Source: Corallium rubrum (Eukaryota > Cnidaria > Anthozoa > Scleralcyonacea > Coralliidae). Taken from it: a stretch of 64,000 nt of DNA. Positions within the stretch are counted from its first letter, which is position 1, and the number at the start of each line of letters is the position of its first letter. The DNA is taken from contig OZ036014.1 in assembly GCA_964035015.1 (NCBI GenBank), positions 2,196,201-2,260,200 on the forward strand, in the 5' to 3' direction. Made by a program: the position numbers and the translations under genes. Positions 2,634 to 36,714 of the stretch are shown here, piece by piece. The notes under the pieces are model-generated. The model had not been told where the DNA came from and searched no databases. It saw only the letters and a list, made by a program, of their open reading frames with translations.

Positions 2634-16629
<13,996 letters not shown>

Positions 16630-25341: not shown

Positions 25342-25398
25342 ATATAAGGGGTTATTACTTTGTGTTTCGCGCACCAATATGAAAAACGTCATGTAATC

Positions 25399-25449
<51 letters not shown>

Positions 25450-28400
25450 AGCTATACCTAGCTCTACACAGCTATACACAGCTATACACAGCTATACCTA
25501 GCTATACACAGCTATACACAGCTGTACACAGCTGTACGTAGCTATACACAGCTATACACAGCTATACACAGCTATACGTAGCTATACACAGCTATACACA
25601 GCTATACACAGCTATACCTAGCTATACACAGCTATACACAGCTATACACAGCTGTACGTAGCTATACACAGCTATACACAGCTATACGTAGCTATACGTA
25701 GCTATACACAGCTATACGTAGCTATACACAGCTATACACAGCTATACGTAGCTATACACAGCTATACGCAGCTATACACAGCTATACGCAGCTATACACA
25801 GCTATACACAGCTATACGTAGCAATACACAGCTATACACAGCTATACGTAGCTATACACAGCTATACACAGCTATACACAGCTATACCTAGCTATACACA
25901 GCTATACACAGCTGTACACAGCTGTACGTAGCTATACACAGCTATACACAGCTATACACAGCTATACACAGCTATACACAGCTATACACAGCTATACACA
26001 GCTATACCTAGCTATACACAGCTATACACAGCTATACACAGCTGTACACAGCTGTACACAGCTGTACGTAGCTATACACAGCTATACGTAGCTATACGTA
26101 GCTATACACAGCTATACGTAGCTATACACAGCTATACACAGCTATACGTAGCTATACACAGCTATACGCAGCTATACACAGCTATACGCAGCTATACACA
26201 GCTATACACAGCTATACACAGCTATACACAGCTATACGTAGCAATACACAGCTATACACAGCTATACGTAGCTATACACAGCTATACACAGTTATACACA
26301 GCTATACGTAGCTATACGTAGCTATACACAGCTATACGTAGCTATACACAGCTATACACAGCTATACGTAGCTATACACAGCTATACACAGCTATACACT
26401 GCTATACACAGCTATACACAGCTATACACAGCTATACACAGCTATACACAGCTATACACAGCTATACGTAGCTATACACAGCTATACACAGCTATACGTA
26501 GCTATACACAGCTATACACAGCTATACACAGCTATACGTAGCTATACGTAGCTATACACAGCTATACGTAGCTATACGTAGCTATACACAGCTATACACA
26601 GCTATACACTGCTATACGCAGCTATACACAGCTATACACAGCTATACACAGCTATACACAGCTATACACAGCTATACACAGCTATACACAGCTATACACA
26701 GCTATACACAGCTATACACAGCTATACACAGCTATACACAGCTATACACAGCTATACACAGCTATACGTAGCTATACACAGCTATACACAGCTATACGTA
26801 GTTATACACAGCTATACACAGCTATACACAGCTATACGTAGCTATACGTAGCTATACACAGCTATACGTAGCTATACGTAGCTATACGCAGCTATACGTA
26901 GCTATACACAGCTATACACAGCTATACGTAGCTATACACAGCTATACACAGCTATACGTAGCTATACACAGCTATACACAGCTATACGTAGCTATACACA
27001 GCTATACGCAGCTATACACAGCTATACGCAGCTATACACAGCTATACACAGCTATACACAGCTATACACAGCTATACGTAGCTATACACAGCTATACACA
27101 GCTATACGTAGTTATACACAGCTATACACAGCTATACACAGCTATACGTAGCTATACGTAGCTATACACAGCTATACACAGCTATACGTAGCTATACACA
27201 GCTATACACAGCTATACACAGCTATACGTAGCTATACACAGCTATACACAGCTATACGTAGTTATACACAGCTATACACAGCTATACACAGCTATACGTA
27301 GCTATACGTAGCTATACACAGCTATACGTAGCTATACGTAGCTATACGCAGCTATACGTAGCTATACACAGCTATACACAGCTATACGTAGCTATACACA
27401 GCTATACACAGCTATACGTAGCTATACACAGCTATACACAGCTATACGTAGCTATACACAGCTATACGCAGCTATACACAGCTATACGCAGCTATACACA
27501 GCTATACACAGCTATACACAGCTATACTAAGCTATACGTAGCTATACACAGCTATACACAGCTATACGTAGTTATACACAGCTATACACAGCTATACACA
27601 GCTATACGTAGCTATACGTAGCTATACACAGCTATACGTAGCTATACACAGCTATACACAGCTATACGTAGCTATACACAGCTATACACAGCTATACACA
27701 GCTATACACAGCTATACACAGCTATACACAGCTATACACAGCTATACACAGCTATACACAGCTATACGTAGCTATACACAGCTATACACAGCTATACGTA
27801 GCTATACACAGCTATACACAGCTATACACAGCTATACGTAGCTATACGTAGCTATACACAGCTATACACAGCTATACACAGCTATACGTAGCTATACACA
27901 GCTATACACAGCTATACCTAGCTATACACAGCTATACACAGCTATACACAGCTATACACAGCTATACACAGCTATACACAGCTATACGTAGCTATACACA
28001 GCTATACGTAGCTATACACAGCTATACACAGCTATACGTAGCTATACGTAGCTATACACAGCTATACGTAGCTATACGTAGCTATACACAGCTATACACA
28101 GCTATACACAGCTATACGTAGCTATACACAGCTATACACAGCTATACACAGCTATACACAGCTATACACAGCTATACACAGCTATACACAGCTATACGTA
28201 GCTATACACAGCTATACACAGCTATACGTAGCTATACACAGCTATACACAGCTATACACAGCTATACGTAGCTATACACAGCTATACACAGCTATACGTA
28301 GTTATACACAGCTATACACAGCTATACGTAGCTATACGTAGCTATACACAGCTATACGTAGCTATACGTAGCTATACGCAGCTATACGTAGCTATACACA

Positions 28401-29983
28401 GCTATACACAGCTATACGTAGCTATACACAGCTATACACAGCTATACGTAGCTATACACAGCTATACACAGCTATACACAGCTATACACAGCTATACACA
28501 GCTATACACAGCTATACATAGCTATACACAGCTATACACAGCTATACACAGCTATACACAGCTATACGTAGCTATACACAGCTATACACAGCTATACGTA
28601 GTTATACACAGCTATACACAGCTATACACAGCTATACGTAGCTATACACAGCTATACACAGCTATACGTAGCTATACACAGCTATACACAGCTATACACA
28701 GCTATACGTAGCTATACACAGCTATACACAGCTATACGTAGCTATACACAGCTATACACAGCTATACACAGCTATACGTAGCTATACGTAGCTATACACA
28801 GCTATACGTAGCTATACGTAGCTATACGCAGCTATACGTAGCTATACACAGCTATACACAGCTATACGTAGCTATACACAGCTATACACAGCTATACGTA
28901 GCTATACACAGCTATACACAGCTATACGTAGCTATACACAGCTATACTATACACAGCTATACGCAGCTATACACAGCTATACACAGCTATACACAGCTAT
29001 ACACAGCTATACGTAGCTATACACAGCTATACACAGCTATACGTAGTTATACACAGCTATACACAGCTATACACAGCTATACGTAGCTATACGTAGCTAT
29101 ACACAGCTATACGTAGCTATACACAGCTATACACAGCTATACGTAGCTATACACAGCTATACACTGCTATACGCAGCTATACACAGCTATACGCAGCTAT
29201 ACACAGCTATACACAGCTATACGTAGCTATACACAGCTATACACAGCTATACGTAGCTATACACAGCTATACGTAGCTATACGTAGCTATACACAGCTAT
29301 ACACAGCTATACACAGCTATACGTAGCTATACACAGCTATACGTAGCTATACGTAGCTATACGCAGCTATACACAGCTATACGTAGCTATACACAGCTAT
29401 ACGTAGCTATACACAGCTATACACAGCTATACGTAGCTATACACAGCTATACACAGCTATACACAGCTATACGCAGCTATACACAGCTATACACAGCTAT
29501 ACACAGCTATACACAGCTATACGTAGCTATGCACAGCTATACACAGCTATACGTAGCTATACGTAGCTATACACAGCTATACACAGCTATACACAGCTAT
29601 ACGTAGCTATACACAGCTATACGTAGCTATACGTAGCTATACGCAGCTATACGTAGCTATACACAGCTATACACAGCTATACGTAGCTATACGTAGCTAT
29701 ACACAGCTATACGTAGCTATACACAGCTATACACAGCTATACGTAGCTATACACAGCTATACACAGCTATACACAGCTATACGCAGCTATACACAGCTAT
29801 ACACAGCTATACACAGCTATACACAGCTATACGTAGCTATACACAGCTATACACAGCTATACGTAGCTATACACAGCTATACACAGCTATACACAGTTAT
29901 ACACAGCTATAAAAAGCTATACACAGCTATACGTAGTTATACACAGCTATACACAGCTATAAAAAGCTATACACGGCTATACC
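25450..29983 (+). repeat. Left arm: ~450 decamers AGCTATACAC / AGCTATACGT
   Basis: Two main unit types, ending ACAC or ACGT, alternate irregularly; minor types end ACGC or ACCT, and there are GTAC, GCAA and GTTA variants. One register slip occurs near 28946. The innermost units are degenerate (AAAAAGCTAT). No open frame, no unique spacers. Confidence 0.97.
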
Positions 29984-31354
29984 TGTCATGCTAATTCTAC
30001 GTCATTCAGTTGTTGTTGAACATGCGGTCATCTTAGCTTTACAGGGTACGGGATTTTAATCTTTGTTTTCTTCGAACTGATTTGTCGATATCACTTGGAA
30101 TTTTTGAGACGATATTTTAAAATGAAGAAACTGGTTTATATTTTTATCAGCAGGTAAGCATGATAACATTTTTTAGTGTTTATGATGACAAAGTAAAAAA
30201 TAGGTACGCAATGCGTACATGTGACTACCCCTATTAAGCACAGAGAGATATAGCCTTAAGAAGCAATGCATGAAAATGTGTGAAAAGCACACAGAAAACA
30301 CAAACAAATGAGTTATTTTAAATCATTTTATACATGTGCTCCTAATTTGAACATGGCACATACTATACATACATCTTTACTGGCTGTTTCCATATATTAA
30401 TATATGGCATAGCATATATTAGCATTATAACATGCCCCAAAGTGATCTTGTAAAATTCAATTTTTTGTATGAAGCCTGGATTGCTACTTTATTGGCGCTT
30501 TGAACAACCCAATTAACGTTTATCCACTGAACAACACTATCACATACATAACTACATGTATTCTGTGGATAAAATTTTATATTAGGTTGTTCAAGTCATG
30601 ATTAGTGCTGTTCTTTATCTCGGATGTCAACTCACCCTAGTCCATATAGATTATTTTTGTGGAAACACCACGTAAAATATTTATTTGCTGAGCTTTTGGC
30701 CTGTTGACTCAGGTCTAAGCTCAGCAAATAAATATTTTACTTGGTGTTTCCACAAAAATAATCCATATTACATTATCGCCATGAAAACTTTCAAAGAATT
30801 AATCACCCCAGATTATCAACATTTTACCTGTCCTAAATATGCTGTCAGTGGCATTCAAGTGTCATGTATATCACTAATATTTTGTGATTCTGCTAGTAGT
30901 TTGAATAAGACTCATGTACAATACTCAGTACCGTAGTTTCAACAGATATATTTCTTCATTTCAAGGCTTTCAATATATTCAAGGCTTTCAGTTTCCCAAC
31001 AGCTCACAATAGCTTTTCAACAATTTATCAAAATGTACAATTGAGTGACACTTAGACATCAGATTATAGAATATTTTAGTACTTTCATAAGAGTCAGACT
31101 TTTGGTGTATCTACTATTCTGTGGTCAGACCACTGTAGCAGCTCTCGTGTGCACAAACTTTGGTTTCTTAATTTCATTATACAAGATATTGAACAACACC
31201 TAAATCAAGTAAACAAAGCAGGTTTTGTAATGTCGATATAACAGCCAAGATATTTTGTCAGCATAAATTTCTTATATACATGTATATAGTGTAAATACAG
31301 GGCACTGTGATTATGATTATACTTCTCCAAATCATTAATAATTTATAAACCAAA
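29984..31354. other. Central spacer of the foldback element
   Basis: Unique AT-rich sequence with no transposase-like ORF. The longest frame (30685-30936) mostly overlaps a nested MITE. One exon-like piece, an ATG with ten codons ending ATCAGCAG|GTAAGC (about 30122-30155), has a good donor but no partner exon that I can find. It could be captured host sequence. Confidence 0.6.
30650..30763. mobile_element. Palindromic MITE nested in the foldback spacer
   Basis: GATTATTTTTGTGGAAACAC ... TTTATTTGCTGAGC is mirrored by GCTCAGCAAATAAA ... GTGTTTCCACAAAAATAATC. Related copies, with the same ATCGCCATGAAAAC flank, lie at 53206-53450. Confidence 0.8.
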
Positions 31355-34300
31355 CATATAGCTGTGTATAGCTACATATAGTTGTGTATAGCTACGTATA
31401 GCTGTGTATAGCGGTGTATAGCTACGTATAGCTACGTATAGCTACGTATAGCTACGTATAGCTGTGTATGGCTGTGTATAGATCTGTATAGCTGCGTATA
31501 GCTGTGTATAGCTGTGTATAGCTGTGCATAGCAGTACGTATAGCTGTGTATAGCTGTGTATAGCTGTGTATAGCTGTGTATAGCTACGTATAGCTACGTA
31601 TAGCTGTGTATAGCTGTGTATAGCTACGTATAGCTGTGTATAGCTGTGTATTGCTACGTATAGCTGTGTATAGCTGTGTATAGCTGTGTATAGCTGCGTA
31701 TAGCTGTGTATAGCTACGTATAGCTGTGTATAGCTGTGTATAGCTACGTATAGCTGTGTATAGCTACGTATAGCTACGTATAGCTGTGTATAGCTGTGTA
31801 TAGCTGCGTATAGCTACGTATAGCTACGTATAGCTGTGTATAGCTACGTATAGCTACGTATAGCTGTGTATAGCTGTGTATAGCTACGTATAGCTGTGTA
31901 TAGCTGTGTATAGCTACGTATAGCTGTGTATAGCTGTGTATAGCTGTGTATAGCTGTGTATAGCTGCGTATAGCAGTGTGTAGCTGTGTATAGCTGTGTA
32001 TAGCTACGTATAGCTGCGTATAGCTGTGTATAGCTGTGTATAGCTACGTATAGCTGCGTATAGCTGTGTATAGCTACGTATAGCTGTGTATAGCTACGTA
32101 TAGCTGTGTATAGCTGTGTATAGCTACGTATAGCTGCGTATAGCTACGTATAGCTACGTATAGCTGTGTATAGCTGTGTATAGCTACGTATAGCTGCGTA
32201 TAGCTACGTATAGCTACGTATAGCTGTGTATAGCTACGTATAGCTACGTATAGCTGTGTATAGCTGTGTATAGCTGTGTATAGCTGTGTATAGCTGTGTA
32301 TAGCTGTGTATAGCTACGTATAGCTACGTATAGCTGTGTATAGCTACGTATAGCTGTGTATAGCTGTGTATAGCTGTGTATAGCTGCGTATAGCTGTGTA
32401 TAGCTGTGTATAGCTGTGTATAGCTACGTACAGCTGTGTATAGCTGTGTATAGCTGTGTATAGCTACGTATAGCTGCGTATAGCTACGTATAGCGACGTA
32501 TAGCTGTGTATAGCTACGTATAGCTACGTATAGCTGTGTATAGCTGTGTATAGCTACGTATAGCTGTGTATAGCTGTGTATAGCTACGTATAGCTGTGTA
32601 TAGCTGTGTATAGCTGTGTATAGCTGCGTATAGCTGTGTATAGCTGTGTATAGCTACGTATAGCTGTGTATAGCTGTGTATAGCTACGTATAGCTGTGTA
32701 TAGCTGTGTATAGCTGTATAGCTGTGTATAGTGTATAGCTGTATACTGTGTATAGCTGGTATAGCTGTATAGCTGTATAGCGTATAGCTACGTATAGCTG
32801 TGTATAGCTGTGTATAGCTGTGTATAGCTGCGTATAGCTACGTATAGCGACGTATAGCTGTGTATAGCTACGTATAGCTACGTATAGCTGTGTATAGCTA
32901 CGTATAGCTGTGTATAGCTGTGTATAGCTACGTATAGCTGTGTATAGCTGTGTATAGCTGTGTATAGCTGCGTATAGCTGTGTATAGCTGTGTATAGCTA
33001 CGTATAGCTGTGTATAGCTGTGTATAGCTACGTATAGCTGTGTATAGCTGTGTATAGCTACGTATAGCTGCGTATAGCTACGTATAGCTACGTATAGCTG
33101 TGTATAGCTACGTATAGCTACGTATAGCTGTGTATAGCTGTGTATAGCTGTGTATAGCTACGTATAGCTGTGTATTGCTACGTATAGCTGTGTATAGCTG
33201 TGTATAGCTGTGTATAGCTGCGTATAGCTGTGTATAGCTGCGTATAGCTGTGTATAGCTACGTATAGCTGTGTATAGCTGTGTATAGCTGTGTATAGCTA
33301 CGTATATCTGTGTATAGCTACGTATAGCTACGTATAGCTGTGTATAGCTGTGTATAGCTGTGTATAGCTACGTATAGCTGTGTATAGCTGTGTATAGCTG
33401 CGTATAGCTGTGTATAGCTGCGTATAGCTGTGTATAGCTACGTATAGCTGTGTATAGCTGTGTATAGCTGTGTATAGCTGTGTATAGCTGTGTATAGCTA
33501 CGTACAGCTGTGTATAGCTGTGTATAGCTACGTATAGCTGTGTATAGCTACGTATAGCTACGTATAGCTGTGTATAGCTGTGTATAGCTACGTATAGCTG
33601 CGAATAGCTACGTATAGCGACGTATAGCTGTGTATAGCTGTGTATAGCTACGTATAGCTACGTATAGCTGTGTATAGCTGTGTATAGCTACGTATAGCTG
33701 TGTATAGCTGTGTATAGCTGTGTATAGCTGTGTATAGCTGTGTATAGCTACGTACAGCTGTGTATAGCTGTGTATAGCTACGTATAGCTGTGTATAGCTA
33801 CGTATAGCTACGTATAGCTGTGTATAGCTGTGTATAGCTGTGTATAGCTACGTATAGCTGCGTATAGCTACGTATAGCGACGTATAGCTGTGTATAGCTA
33901 CGTATAGCTACGTATAGCTGTGTATAGCTGTGTATAGCTGTGTATAGCTACGTATAGCTGTGTATTGCTACGTATAGCTGTGTATAGCTGTGTATAGCTG
34001 TGTATAGCTGCGTATAGCTGTGTATAGCTGCGTATAGCTGTGTATAGCTACGTATAGCTGTGTATAGCTGTGTATAGCTGTGTATAGCTGTGTATAGCTG
34101 TGTATAGCTACGTACAGCTGTGTATAGCTGTGTATAGCTACGTATAGCTGTGTATAGCTACGTATAGCTACGTATAGCTGTGTATAGCTGTGTATAGCTG
34201 TGTATAGCTGCGTATAGCTGTGTATAGCTGCGTATAGCTGTGTATAGCTACGTATAGCTGTGTATAGCTGTGTATAGCTGTGTATAGCTGTGTATAGCTG

Positions 34301-36050
34301 TGTATAGCTGTGTATAGCTACGTACAGCTGTGTATAGCTGTGTATAGCTACGTATAGCTGTGTATAACTACGTATAGCTACGTATAGCTGTGTATAGCTG
34401 TGTATAGCTACGTATAGCTGCGAATAGCTACGTATAGCGACGTATAGCTGTGTATAGTTGTGTATAGCTACGTATAGCTACGTATAGCTGTGTATAGCTG
34501 TGTATAGCTACGTATAGCTGTGTATAGCTGTGTATAGCTGTGTATAGCTGTGTATAGCTGTGTATAGCTACGTACAGCTGTGTATAGCTGTGTATAGCTA
34601 CGTATAGCTGTGTATAGCTACGTATAGCTACGTATAGCTGTGTATAGCTGTGTATAGCTACGTATAGCTGCGTATAGCTACGTATAGCGACGTATAGCTG
34701 TGTATAGCTACGTATAGCTACGTATAGCTGTGTATAGCTGTGTATAGCTGTGTATAGCTACGTATAGCTGTGTATTGCTACGTATAGCTGTGTATAGCTG
34801 TGTATAGCTGTGTATAGCTGCGTATAGCTGTGTATAGCTGCGTATAGCTGTGTATAGCTACGTATAGCTGTGTATAGCTGTGTATAGCTGTGTATAGCTG
34901 TGTATAGCTGTGTATAGCTACGTACAGCTGTGTATAGCTGTGTATAGCTGTGTATAGCTACGTATAGCTACGTATAGCTACGTATAGCTGTGTATAGCTG
35001 TGTATAGCTACGTATAGCTGCGAATAGCTACGTATAGCGACGTATAGCTGTGTATAGCTGTGTATAGCTACGTATAGCTACGTATAGCTGTGTATAGCTG
35101 TGTATAGCTACGTATAGCTGTGTATAGCTGTGTATAGCTGTGTATAGCTACGTATAGCTGTGTATAGCTGTGTATAGCTGTGTATAGCTGCGTATAGCTG
35201 TGTATAGCTGTGTATAGCTACGTATAGCTGTGTATAGCTGTGTATAGCTACGTATAGCTGTGTATAGCTGTGTATAGCTACGTATAGCTGTGTATAGCTA
35301 CGTATAGCTACGTATAGCTGTGTATAGCTGTGTATAGCTACGTATAGCTGCGTATAGCTACGTATAGCTGTGTATAGCTACGTATAGCTACGTATAGCTG
35401 TGTATAGCTGTGTATAGCTACGTATAGCTGTGTATAGCTGTGTATAGCTACGTATAGCTGTGTATAGCTGTGTATAGCTGTGTATAGCTGCGTATAGCTG
35501 TGTATAGCTGTGTATAGCTACGTATAGCTGTGTATAGCTGTGTATAGCTACGTATAGCTGTGTATAGCTGTGTATAGCTACGTATAGCTGCGTATAGCTG
35601 TGTATAGCTGTGTATAGCTACGTATAGCTGCGTATAGCTACGTATAGCTACGTATAGCTGTGTATAGCTACGTATAGCTACGTATAGCTGTGTATAGCTG
35701 TGTATAGCTACGTATAGCTGTGTATTGCTACGTATAGCTGTGTATAGCTGTGTATAGCTGTGTATAGCTGCGTATAGCTGTGTATAGCTGCGTATAGCTG
35801 TGTATAGCTACGTATAGCTGTGTATAGCTGTGTATAGCTACGTACAGCTGCGTACAGCTGTGTATAGCTGTGTATAGCTAGGTATAGCTGTGTATAGCTG
35901 TGTATAGCTACGTATAGCTGTGTATAGCTGTGTATAGCTGTGTATAGCTGTGTATAGCTACGTACAGCTGTGTACAGCTGTGTATAGCTGTGTATAGCTA
36001 GGTATAGCTGTGTATAGCTGTGTATAGCTGTGTAGAGCTAGGTATAGCTG

Positions 36051-36051
<1 letters not shown>
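31355..36051 (-). repeat. Right arm: ~470 decamers, inverse of the left arm
   Basis: GTGTATAGCT and ACGTATAGCT units, the reverse complement of the left arm. A scrambled, out-of-register patch lies near 32705-32790. Rare variants mark higher-order copying: TGTATTGCTA at 33171, 33961, 34771 and 35721, and CGAATAGCTA at 33601, 34421 and 35021. Confidence 0.97.
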
Positions 36052-36113
<62 letters not shown>

Positions 36114-36307
36114 GATTACATGACGTTTTTCATATTGGTGCGCGAAACACAAAGTAATAACCATATAAGGCGCGTGCGGAAATTACGCCTGCGCCCGGGG
36201 CATGCCGAAATTCTGCGCAAATTTTTGATATCCCTTACTACCCATTATTATCCCATCAAGAGTCGTTATTATCCATCACTGTCCACTATTATCCAACAAT
36301 TTCCAAA

Positions 36308-36714
36308 ATGGCGGACAGAATGAACGGAACAAACCATGATGCAATTTCAGAAGAAGAATTTGAAGGTAATTGTCAAAGAAGTTTTTGATCTTTTTTTTTA
36401 AATTCGGTAACTGAATTACGTCCTGTAATATTTAATTTTTAAACCGTTAAAATTTACACTATTTAGTATATAATGACACATAAATATAATTGTATACAGT
36501 CTGACAGTTTGTAATTTCATTGTAAAGCCTACATATGAATTATTGTTGCTTTTTCCTAGATTATCAAACTTTAGAAACGGAGCTAGATAAGCTGGATTCG
36601 TGTCTCAGTGTGATTGAAGGATGGAATGAAAATTTACATTCAGAATGTCTTAAACTTCTAGAAAGAACCAAAGAGCTTCGTAATCAGACGTCTACAAACG
36701 AAGGTGCGACATGA
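36308..36714 (+). CDS. BBLN: Bublin coiled-coil protein (BBLN / C9orf16 family), 70 aa
   Basis: Two exons, 36308-36365 (GAAG|GTAATT) and 36560-36714 (TTTTTCCTAG|), join in phase to 213 nt. The acidic N-terminus (SEEEFE) leads into one coiled-coil helix: DYQTLETELDKLDSCLSVIE, then NENLHSECLKLLERTKELR. It matches the small bublin/C9orf16 family around LD..NSCLD..EE.N..LHA.LQELLE. In C. elegans the orthologue organises intermediate filaments at the apical cortex. The start follows an AAAATGGCGG context. It begins only 138 bp past the foldback target duplication, so its promoter must lie in that gap or inside the element. It is too short for usual ORF cut-offs. Confidence 0.75.

Follow-up and report, generated by a model that had tools for sequence, protein, structure and literature searches.

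The window analysed here is a 64,000-nucleotide stretch of the Corallium rubrum genome, within which an element of 10,813 bp (25350-36162) is bounded by perfect 51-bp ends and a flanking 8-bp duplication. The two copies of the target-site duplication, ATATAAGG, lie at positions 25342..25349 and 36163..36170, and the terminal inverted repeats that they border occupy positions 25350..25400 on the plus strand and 36112..36162 on the minus strand. Next to each terminal repeat there is an (AT)n run (25402..25446 on the left and 36052..36111 on the right), followed inward by a long array of decamers. The left arm (25447..29984, plus strand) holds about 453 units of GCTATACACA and its variants, and the right arm (31358..36055, minus strand) holds about 467 units in the orientation opposite to that of the left arm. 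With array lengths taken as assembled throughout, the arms measure about 4.5 kb (left) and 4.7 kb (right), and the core between them measures about 1.37 kb. The core consists of a subterminal sequence (part 1, 29986..30203, plus strand) and a piece of an unrelated dispersed repeat (part 2, 30194..31361, plus strand), the latter including a 52-bp inverted repeat with a 21-bp loop (30644..30768) that is part of the captured repeat.

TRF placed the decamer-based arrays at positions 25443-29982 and 31357-36055, reporting their periods as 30 and 40, and when the units were anchored on AGC, the left arm had 424 of 438 spacings at exactly 10 bp and the right arm had 431 of 452. Together with the comparison of ends and flanks, this confirmed the initial annotation of the locus as a foldback element with perfect inverted ends, 8-bp flanks, decamer arms and a 1.37-kb spacer; the long inverted ends made of short tandem subrepeats are the structure by which foldback elements are recognised. 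The accompanying description of the arms as inverted holds for the orientation of the decamers and for the outer 131 bp, which are identical between the two arms, but it does not extend to the order of the unit variants, which is not mirrored further inward. Few 12-unit words are common to the left and right arms in the window, and the ungapped identity of the two arrays is 0.67.

Copies of the element in the genome

A genome-wide search with a 40-bp part of the terminal repeat, allowing up to 3 mismatches, returned 28 forward and 26 reverse matches while the reversed control returned 0 and 0, so the ends in the window are not there by chance. Pairing was possible for 46 of these 54 matches, giving 23 end-pairs in the same 474-Mb genome, and, besides the two ends at C51:4710719 and C51:4711075 described below, five had no partner in the searches made. 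The 8-bp duplication is exact in 15 end-pairs and has one mismatch in 5, one other end-pair has an exact duplication of 9 bp, and two of the 23, at C49:365479 and C37:7270164, have no matching 8-bp duplication. At up to one mismatch, 8-bp duplications thus flank 20/23 true end-pairs, compared to 0/506 cross-pairs. The initial annotation had made its foldback family depend on finding further copies that have these ends and are flanked by 8-bp duplications, and such copies are present. The window element belongs to a real transposon family, whose dispersed copies have terminal inverted repeats and duplications of near-constant length, as is characteristic of foldback elements.

Uninterrupted paralogous empty sites were found for 3 of the 11 sites submitted, with junction identities of 93-98%. 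Nine copies that were read end to end have the same architecture, save for a nested stretch in one of them, and decamers were absent from the stretch read beside the ends at C51:4710719 and C51:4711075. MULEs are biased towards insertion near genes; in the Corallium family the flanks of the 23 insertion sites have a raised GC content and 3.29 CpG per 100 bp, versus 2.16-2.19 (p 0.0013 and 0.0017, one-sided), which is a measure of composition and not of distance to genes. A pair of ends 64.5 kb apart on C13, considered as a giant element, turned out to be an ordinary copy whose right arm is interrupted by about 59 kb of foreign sequence. A 20-base end motif also hit 5 IMG/VR contigs, but these all show a single conserved stretch that continues differently from the element and were discarded as unrelated.

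Full-length cores were found in 18 copies at 96-100% identity among 40 scored candidates, and 14 full-length cores, counting that of the window, are at least 99% identical to the window core. We read the family as young and the copy in the window as recent. Core identities of 45% between three copies and the rest were an artefact of orientation, as those three cores are reversed.

Candidate autonomous partner and chimeric core

For the autonomous partner sharing the ends that the initial annotation had envisaged, a candidate was located in the C82 element, which is 20.5 kb long, has the same ends as the window family with an exact duplication, and carries a transposase-like ORF of 791 aa. This ORF is single-copy, any other match being at most 47% identical. 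It retrieved the NCBIfam IS256 model (E 1.9e-6, 27 bits against a cut-off of 150), the Pfam ISL3 model (E 0.002, 18 bits against a cut-off of 23) and the Pfam Otubain model (E 4e-5), with no curated cut-off of Pfam or NCBIfam being reached. No Pfam MULE model was retrieved at E up to 1, no Pfam PHD model was found, and a search against solved structures yielded nothing beyond a chance match (E 1.7). On these profile matches, the source of the transposase probably belongs to the Mutator/IS256-like clan and, like C82, carries an OTU domain.

The C82 element is also informative about the core. Core part 1 comprises 218 bp that are common to it and the window at 98.6% identity, and core part 2 is about 97% identical to copies of the dispersed repeat on C15 and C53 that extend outside the stretch matched by part 2. 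The two parts overlap by junction bases that both parents have. The core of the window element is chimeric, with a subterminal stretch shared with C82 joined to a fragment of an unrelated repeat.

Although we lean towards C82 as the partner, there is an appreciable chance that it is not, in which case its ORF would come from a nested element of other origin, with the real autonomous copy missing or extinct. The interior of C82 does contain a nested ~395-bp repeat, which dominated the search of that interior, and there are about 5 kb of N beside its right arm and a stop codon directly upstream of the ORF; the A2 copy on C30, moreover, has a different core. Weighing against this, C82 shares with the family its ends, duplication, arm and the 218 bp of subterminal sequence described above.

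It is less probable, and in our view unlikely, that the family owes its mobility to a transposase of P or hAT type, in the manner of Galileo, and not to a Mutator-type one. Duplications of 8 bp are compatible with hAT and P as well. Galileo, a member of the P superfamily, has long, internally repetitive terminal inverted repeats (PMC3573991). However, the sole transposase-like ORF within the same ends matched IS256 and ISL3, and no P, THAP or hAT Pfam model was found at E up to 1 on this ORF, the only candidate tested. The mostly 8-bp duplications also fit the range of 8-11 bp given for MULEs (PMC6446971).

Decamer arms

Arms in the family measure between about 0.6 kb and about 23 kb, and at least one copy, at C8:5185333, has an arm (about 23 kb) far above those in the window. 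The copy at C8:51064790 has 0 core differences from the window, yet its arms contain 193 and 168 units as opposed to 453 and 467, i.e., less than half of the window's arm length. Between copies, array length is far more variable than the remainder of the element, and we read the arms as fast-changing minisatellites.

The likeness of two arms was expressed as the share of 12-unit words between them. Same-side arms of sister copies share from 0.33 to 0.69 of their words (up to 0.47 on the left and 0.69 on the right), while the medians are 0.036 over left-left pairs and 0.008 over right-right pairs. Left and right arms within one copy share 0.036 on average (9 copies), which is far below the values for sister copies, and we do not favour the idea that the arms are mirror copies produced by recent conversion. 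There may nevertheless be limited exchange between the two arms of a copy, since the value within copies is slightly higher than the mean of 0.019 for opposite arms of different copies and since the longest run common to the window's two arms, 19 units, only just exceeds the maximum of a Markov control (17 in 60; mean 13.2).

Decamer arrays are hard to assemble, as seen from 200 N inside an arm of the copy at C1:26054000 and the N run in C82 (N being either gaps or stretches withheld), and one could ask if the palindrome is an artefact in which the assembler mirrored a single array. We regard this as highly improbable because a copy's two arms are unequal in length and arrange their unit variants differently while resembling same-side sister arms elsewhere, and the flanking duplications and empty sites also argue against it. 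Similarly far-fetched is the reading of the decamer as an ordinary genomic satellite beside which the ends lie by chance: the arrays alone do resemble a minisatellite, but among the matches listed for the outer array motif (100 of 1,203), 99 are in loci with a matched end and 1 (C1:5148929) adjoins a core copy, a test that is biased towards element loci because the motif came from an element's own array start.

Interpretation

We consider it very likely that the window contains a recent, non-autonomous, cut-and-paste foldback copy, probably of Mutator type, that was moved in trans and whose arms are fast-changing minisatellites. Under this model, a transposase supplied from elsewhere would recognise the 51-bp ends, and a staggered cut at insertion would produce the 8-bp duplication. 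The founder would be a coding relative whose interior was swapped for a piece of some unrelated repeat, this one chimera being amplified afterwards. The decamer arrays would be carried along with the element, each arm growing and shrinking largely independently by block gain and loss of units, to yield the ~0.6- to ~23-kb span of arm lengths. We infer the identity of the transposase, mobilisation in trans, the repair mechanism and any link between length change and transposition. As a hypothesis, the initial annotation added that such large arms could extrude a cruciform or drive rearrangement.

A bolder extension, which we think doubtful, is that the arms play an active part, large block duplications being set off in both arrays whenever the element goes through a cycle of transposition, be it at excision, repair or insertion. 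The element would then generate long minisatellites and disperse them itself, and longer arrays might be favoured through the transposase-binding site that each decamer would add.

Because arm length varies between copies far more than the rest of the element, the family illustrates the way in which tandem-repeat DNA can be both dispersed and lengthened by a mobile element, and it suggests a route by which such an element could seed new satellite DNA. The nearly unmutated core is a clock that lies alongside two arrays with readable variant maps, and with it one should be able to measure the rate of tandem-repeat change relative to point mutation and to see if such change occurs at transposition. 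The element is also a hard benchmark for assemblers.

Comparison with known systems

The sea-urchin TU elements are modular foldback elements with short tandem repeats in their arms and 8-bp duplications. By description, the Corallium family resembles them in its modular foldback structure and 8-bp duplications and differs in arm and unit, the TU unit being 15 bp and the TU arm under 1 kb. The paper on Tetris cites a sea-urchin foldback element (PMC4079207).

The Tm1 elements of root-knot nematodes form a Mutator/Foldback family whose composite terminal inverted repeat consists of a short outer motif and a variable count of tandem repeats of about 14 bp (PMC3169594). The two repeats of a Tm1 copy are unequal in size, 8-10 bp duplications are given for 45 of 53, and the groups are either MITE-like or have a putative transposase gene (PMC3169594). 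The Corallium family has the same composite, size-unequal repeats and a duplication length in that range. Unlike Tm1, whose outer 7-bp motifs are asymmetric and whose duplications are most often 9 bp (PMC3169594), it has another sequence and unit, and its arms reach kilobases, with one copy at about 23 kb.

Tetris of Drosophila virilis is also an apparently non-autonomous foldback element with tandem repeats in the terminal inverted repeat, with 8-10 bp duplications and with ends that also occur on a MITE, DAIBAM (PMC4079207). Its unit is 220 bp, its terminal inverted repeat reaches 1,735 bp and its repeats also occur as free arrays (PMC4079207), whereas the Corallium unit is a decamer and free arrays were not seen among the matches listed (100 of 1,203). 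Galileo has long terminal inverted repeats of variable length, tandem-repeat change that is independent in each, and chimeric copies (PMC3573991), all of which recall the Corallium family. In contrast to its 7-bp duplications and terminal inverted repeats of 18-1,250 bp, or close to 1,264 bp in two copies (PMC3573991), the Corallium family has 8-bp duplications, and no THAP or P-type model was found on the C82 ORF. Rehavkus, which is MULE-related and found in animal hosts, has a minisatellite ahead of its 3' terminal inverted repeat, 9-bp duplications and a PHD finger in its transposase (PMC6446971). The Corallium family shares the animal host and the minisatellite adjoining an end, but its duplications are 8 bp long in all but three of the 23 pairs, its arrays stand at both ends, and the C82 ORF has no PHD match.

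The Corallium element is of a kind already known from FB, Tm1, Tetris and Galileo, and the size of its arms is beyond the ranges given for such elements in the publications cited here.

Anatomy of the element and its relatives

The 10.8-kb foldback element proposed at 25350-36162 in the initial annotation was borne out: the insertion has perfect inverted ends of 51 bp with ATATAAGG on either flank, (AT)n runs of 45 and 60 bp, and two decamer arrays (25443-29982 and 31357-36055) that flank a core of approximately 1.37 kb. The outer 131 bp of the two arms are identical. Nine copies, including that of the window, have one layout (end, (AT)n, arm, core of 1,373-1,399 bp, arm, (AT)n, end), and one of them, C12:9484885 (contig and position in the same genome), carries an extra 2.5 kb without decamers close to its left end. 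The main units of their 18 arms are GCTATACACA, GCTATACGTA, and GCTATACGCA, with 2,827, 1,380, and 370 of 5,057 units, respectively.

Arm size varies widely. The decamer arms of the nine copies run from approximately 0.64 to 7.4 kb, those of a tenth copy (C51:4741151) are approximately 1.3 and 1.2 kb, and copy C12:6064027, which has a window-type core and a variant end with GGTTATTTC (named A2; 19 exact occurrences), has just 0.6 kb on either side. The largest span, 28.3 kb, is that of the copy at C8:5185333-5213619, with an exact duplication GCGTTTTG; from the core and end positions, and counted with the ends, 23.2 kb lie to the left of the core and 3.8 kb to its right. The left part was sampled by probes and over its first 1.5 kb; 14 of 14 short probes, one 301-base probe, and the first 1.5 kb are all decamer in a single orientation, which would make a decamer arm of approximately 23 kb.

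At C13:1801524-1866067 (loci L101 and L102), the right decamer arm is split by approximately 59 kb of foreign DNA. Seen from both ends and by short probes, this insert may be a nested mobile element of very large size; its ends have repeated TGTGAGGACC-like motifs, there is possibly a 5-bp duplication (TGTAT), and a frame near one end has a weak C2H2-finger match.

Copies in the genome and signatures of transposition

Allowing at most 2 mismatches, the outer 20 bp of the end occur 146 times forward and 147 times reverse in the 474-Mb genome, where the reversed control gives 2 in each direction. The 40-bp inner form of the window subfamily has 28 forward and 26 reverse matches, and its control has none in either direction. 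Among the resulting 54 ends, 46 form 23 pairs. A further end, C12:5355759, has a partner (pair C12:5355759-5359973), which lies outside the 23 pairs on which the duplication figures rest. The ends C51:4710719 and C51:4711075 have no decamers within the 0.7 kb read, and five ends (C1:26054000, C1:42725881, C25:6147779, C128:51378, and the C230:38267 region) had no partner in the searches made. At C1:26054000 (L025, 4002-4625), another hairpin repeat is inserted in the (AT)n run, and 200 N stand at the arm start.

Other copies with the same ends and 8-bp duplications, the check proposed for the element, are present: flanks are identical at 8 bp in 15 of 23 pairs and one base off in 5 of 23, while 506 mismatched end pairings, serving as control, gave 0 with fewer than 2 mismatches. 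The flanks of pair C53:5328170 are identical at 9 bp. Among the 23 pairs compared, C37:7270164, with mutated ends, and C49:365479 have flanks without a matching duplication. We also joined the flanks of the 23 sites and searched the genome with 11 of them, scoring 40 of 3,399 candidates. Paralogous empty sites, uninterrupted across the junction at 93-98% identity, were retrieved for three (C8:1688101, C8:5185333, and C8:12506148), and the other 8 of 11 queries had no match among the candidates scored.

Among 40 candidates scored, 18 carry the core at full length (one of them starting at position 14) with 96-100% identity, and another 22 carry part of it with 85-97%. The window-type expansion is therefore recent.

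Most loci read with other interiors are a short relative of approximately 160-420 bp, TTAGGG-rich inside, with the outer 20-25 bp in common and mostly 8-bp flanking repeats (an exact 8-bp match is absent in L024 and L028). Nine of these (L012, L019, L020, L022-L024, and L026-L028) have asymmetric ends, GGTTATTAC and GGTGCTTAC, and in L022 one short relative is nested within another.

The 160 bp around the 23 sites hold 3.29 CpG per 100 bp; the remainder of the window has 2.19 (one-sided p 0.0013) and flanks farther out have 2.16 (one-sided p 0.0017). GC is 0.413 at the sites, compared with 0.370 and 0.343. In the window, 145 bp separate the element's end from an ATG at 36308 that plausibly opens a first coding exon (ATGGCGGACAGAATG...), which may place the insertion in a promoter. 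Both the CpG and GC excess and the nearby ATG fit a possible bias toward gene starts. Elsewhere in the window, 13519-16629 is an EGF-repeat open frame of 1,036 aa, with a 117-bp tandem repeat (15.6 copies, 89% match) and an apparent transmembrane stretch near its end.

A candidate partner and a chimeric core

A search for an autonomous partner sharing the ends had also been proposed. The candidate is C82, a 20.5-kb element at C82:2800742 whose ends are the same and whose duplication, AGTAAGTT, is exact; elements of its type are a putative partner whose role is probable. A left decamer arm, shared subterminal sequence, and a 791-aa open frame follow in order. The frame matched the NCBIfam IS256 transposase (E 1.9e-6) and, in Pfam, the ISL3 transposase (E 0.002), Otubain (E 4e-5), and OTU (E 0.014), all below curated cut-offs. 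A D-D-E order can be read in the translation, together with a DxxH motif that follows the second D and precedes the E, a reading guided by features of the family. Counting against this partner, the copy has approximately 5 kb of N in its right half, a stop just upstream of the frame, and a nested repeat. In a genome search with 57 of 233 candidates scored, no protein other than C82 itself matched the frame at above 47% identity. The 57 scored loci form a large protein family with a transposase-like part, many with an OTU-like end and many lying within open frames 500-1,000 codons long.

The core of the window element is chimeric. Its positions 1-218 match C82:2800742 at 98.6%, just inside that element's left arm, and from 30194 on it matches, at 97%, a dispersed repeat at C15:3851300 and C53:6267400, copies of which continue beyond the point where the window switches into the right arm. 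At the left junction, TAAAAAATAG is present in both C82 and the C53 repeat copy, and the C15 copy is shorter there by one A. All nine copies compared have the same junctions, which points to a single founding event. Template switching at the microhomology would be one route, and a study of animal TIR transposons found microhomology at one or more breakpoints in 67.6% of captures (PMC8277862). Since the dispersed repeat's own copies begin at the same point, it is equally possible that the repeat inserted first and a deletion came afterwards. In the A2 copy C30:10620227 (2,646 bp), the decamer arms enclose a core that is palindromic and quite different, so the arms are a module occurring with more than one core.

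Largely separate histories of the two arms

With unit variants coded as letters, the left and right arms of a copy share on average 0.036 of their 12-unit words (nine copies; maximum 0.09); for opposite-side arms taken from different copies the average is 0.019. Same-side sharing between copies reaches 0.47 for left arms (window and C8:51064790) and 0.69 for right arms (C8:1688101 and C12:6790234); the same-side means, 0.066 and 0.068 over 36 pairs each, are low, as close sisters are a minority among the copies. Both arms are therefore inherited as largely independent arrays, each mainly with its own history and neither recently copied from the other across the palindrome. This also argues against a mirror made by the assembler. 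The longest run in both window arms, 19 units, exceeds a Markov control (mean 13.2, maximum 17; 60 trials), making some old or limited exchange between them possible.

The core of C8:51064790 is identical to that of the window (100.0%), with arms of 193 and 168 units where the window copy has 453 and 467. In these shorter arms, 165 of the 193 units and 154 of the 168 fall in collinear blocks of 8 units or more, so the difference, approximately 2.6 and 3.0 kb, consists mainly of a few large internal blocks that were gained or lost. For C51:4741151, with 5 core differences and arms of 128 and 112 units, the coverage is lower (36 of 128 and 60 of 112). Repeated 12-unit words make up a fraction of 0.19-0.37 in the seven arms above 300 units and 0.39 and 0.21 in two shorter arms, in line with block duplication; in the remaining nine (69-265 units) the fraction is 0.05 or less. 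A nearly fixed core beside two hypervariable, variant-coded arrays, in many copies, amounts to a clock, and this is the feature most worth following.

Comparison with known transposons

The family is real and recent and belongs to a known kind; its arms are unusually large and variable. By its structure it is a foldback transposon. The proposal of a new foldback family with very large arms stands as to type and arm size. Among the best-ranked papers on foldback, TU, minisatellite-bearing TIRs, Rehavkus, and OTU transposases, none was recognised as describing this family, a weak sign of novelty. Among the published arms compared, those of Galileo span 18-1,250 bp, two copies lying near 1,264 bp (PMC3573991), and those of Tetris reach 1,735 bp (PMC4079207), both far shorter than here. 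Rehavkus has a minisatellite at one end (PMC6446971). The nearest design among the elements compared is that of Tm1, in which an outer motif is followed by a variable number of approximately 14-bp repeats (PMC3169594).
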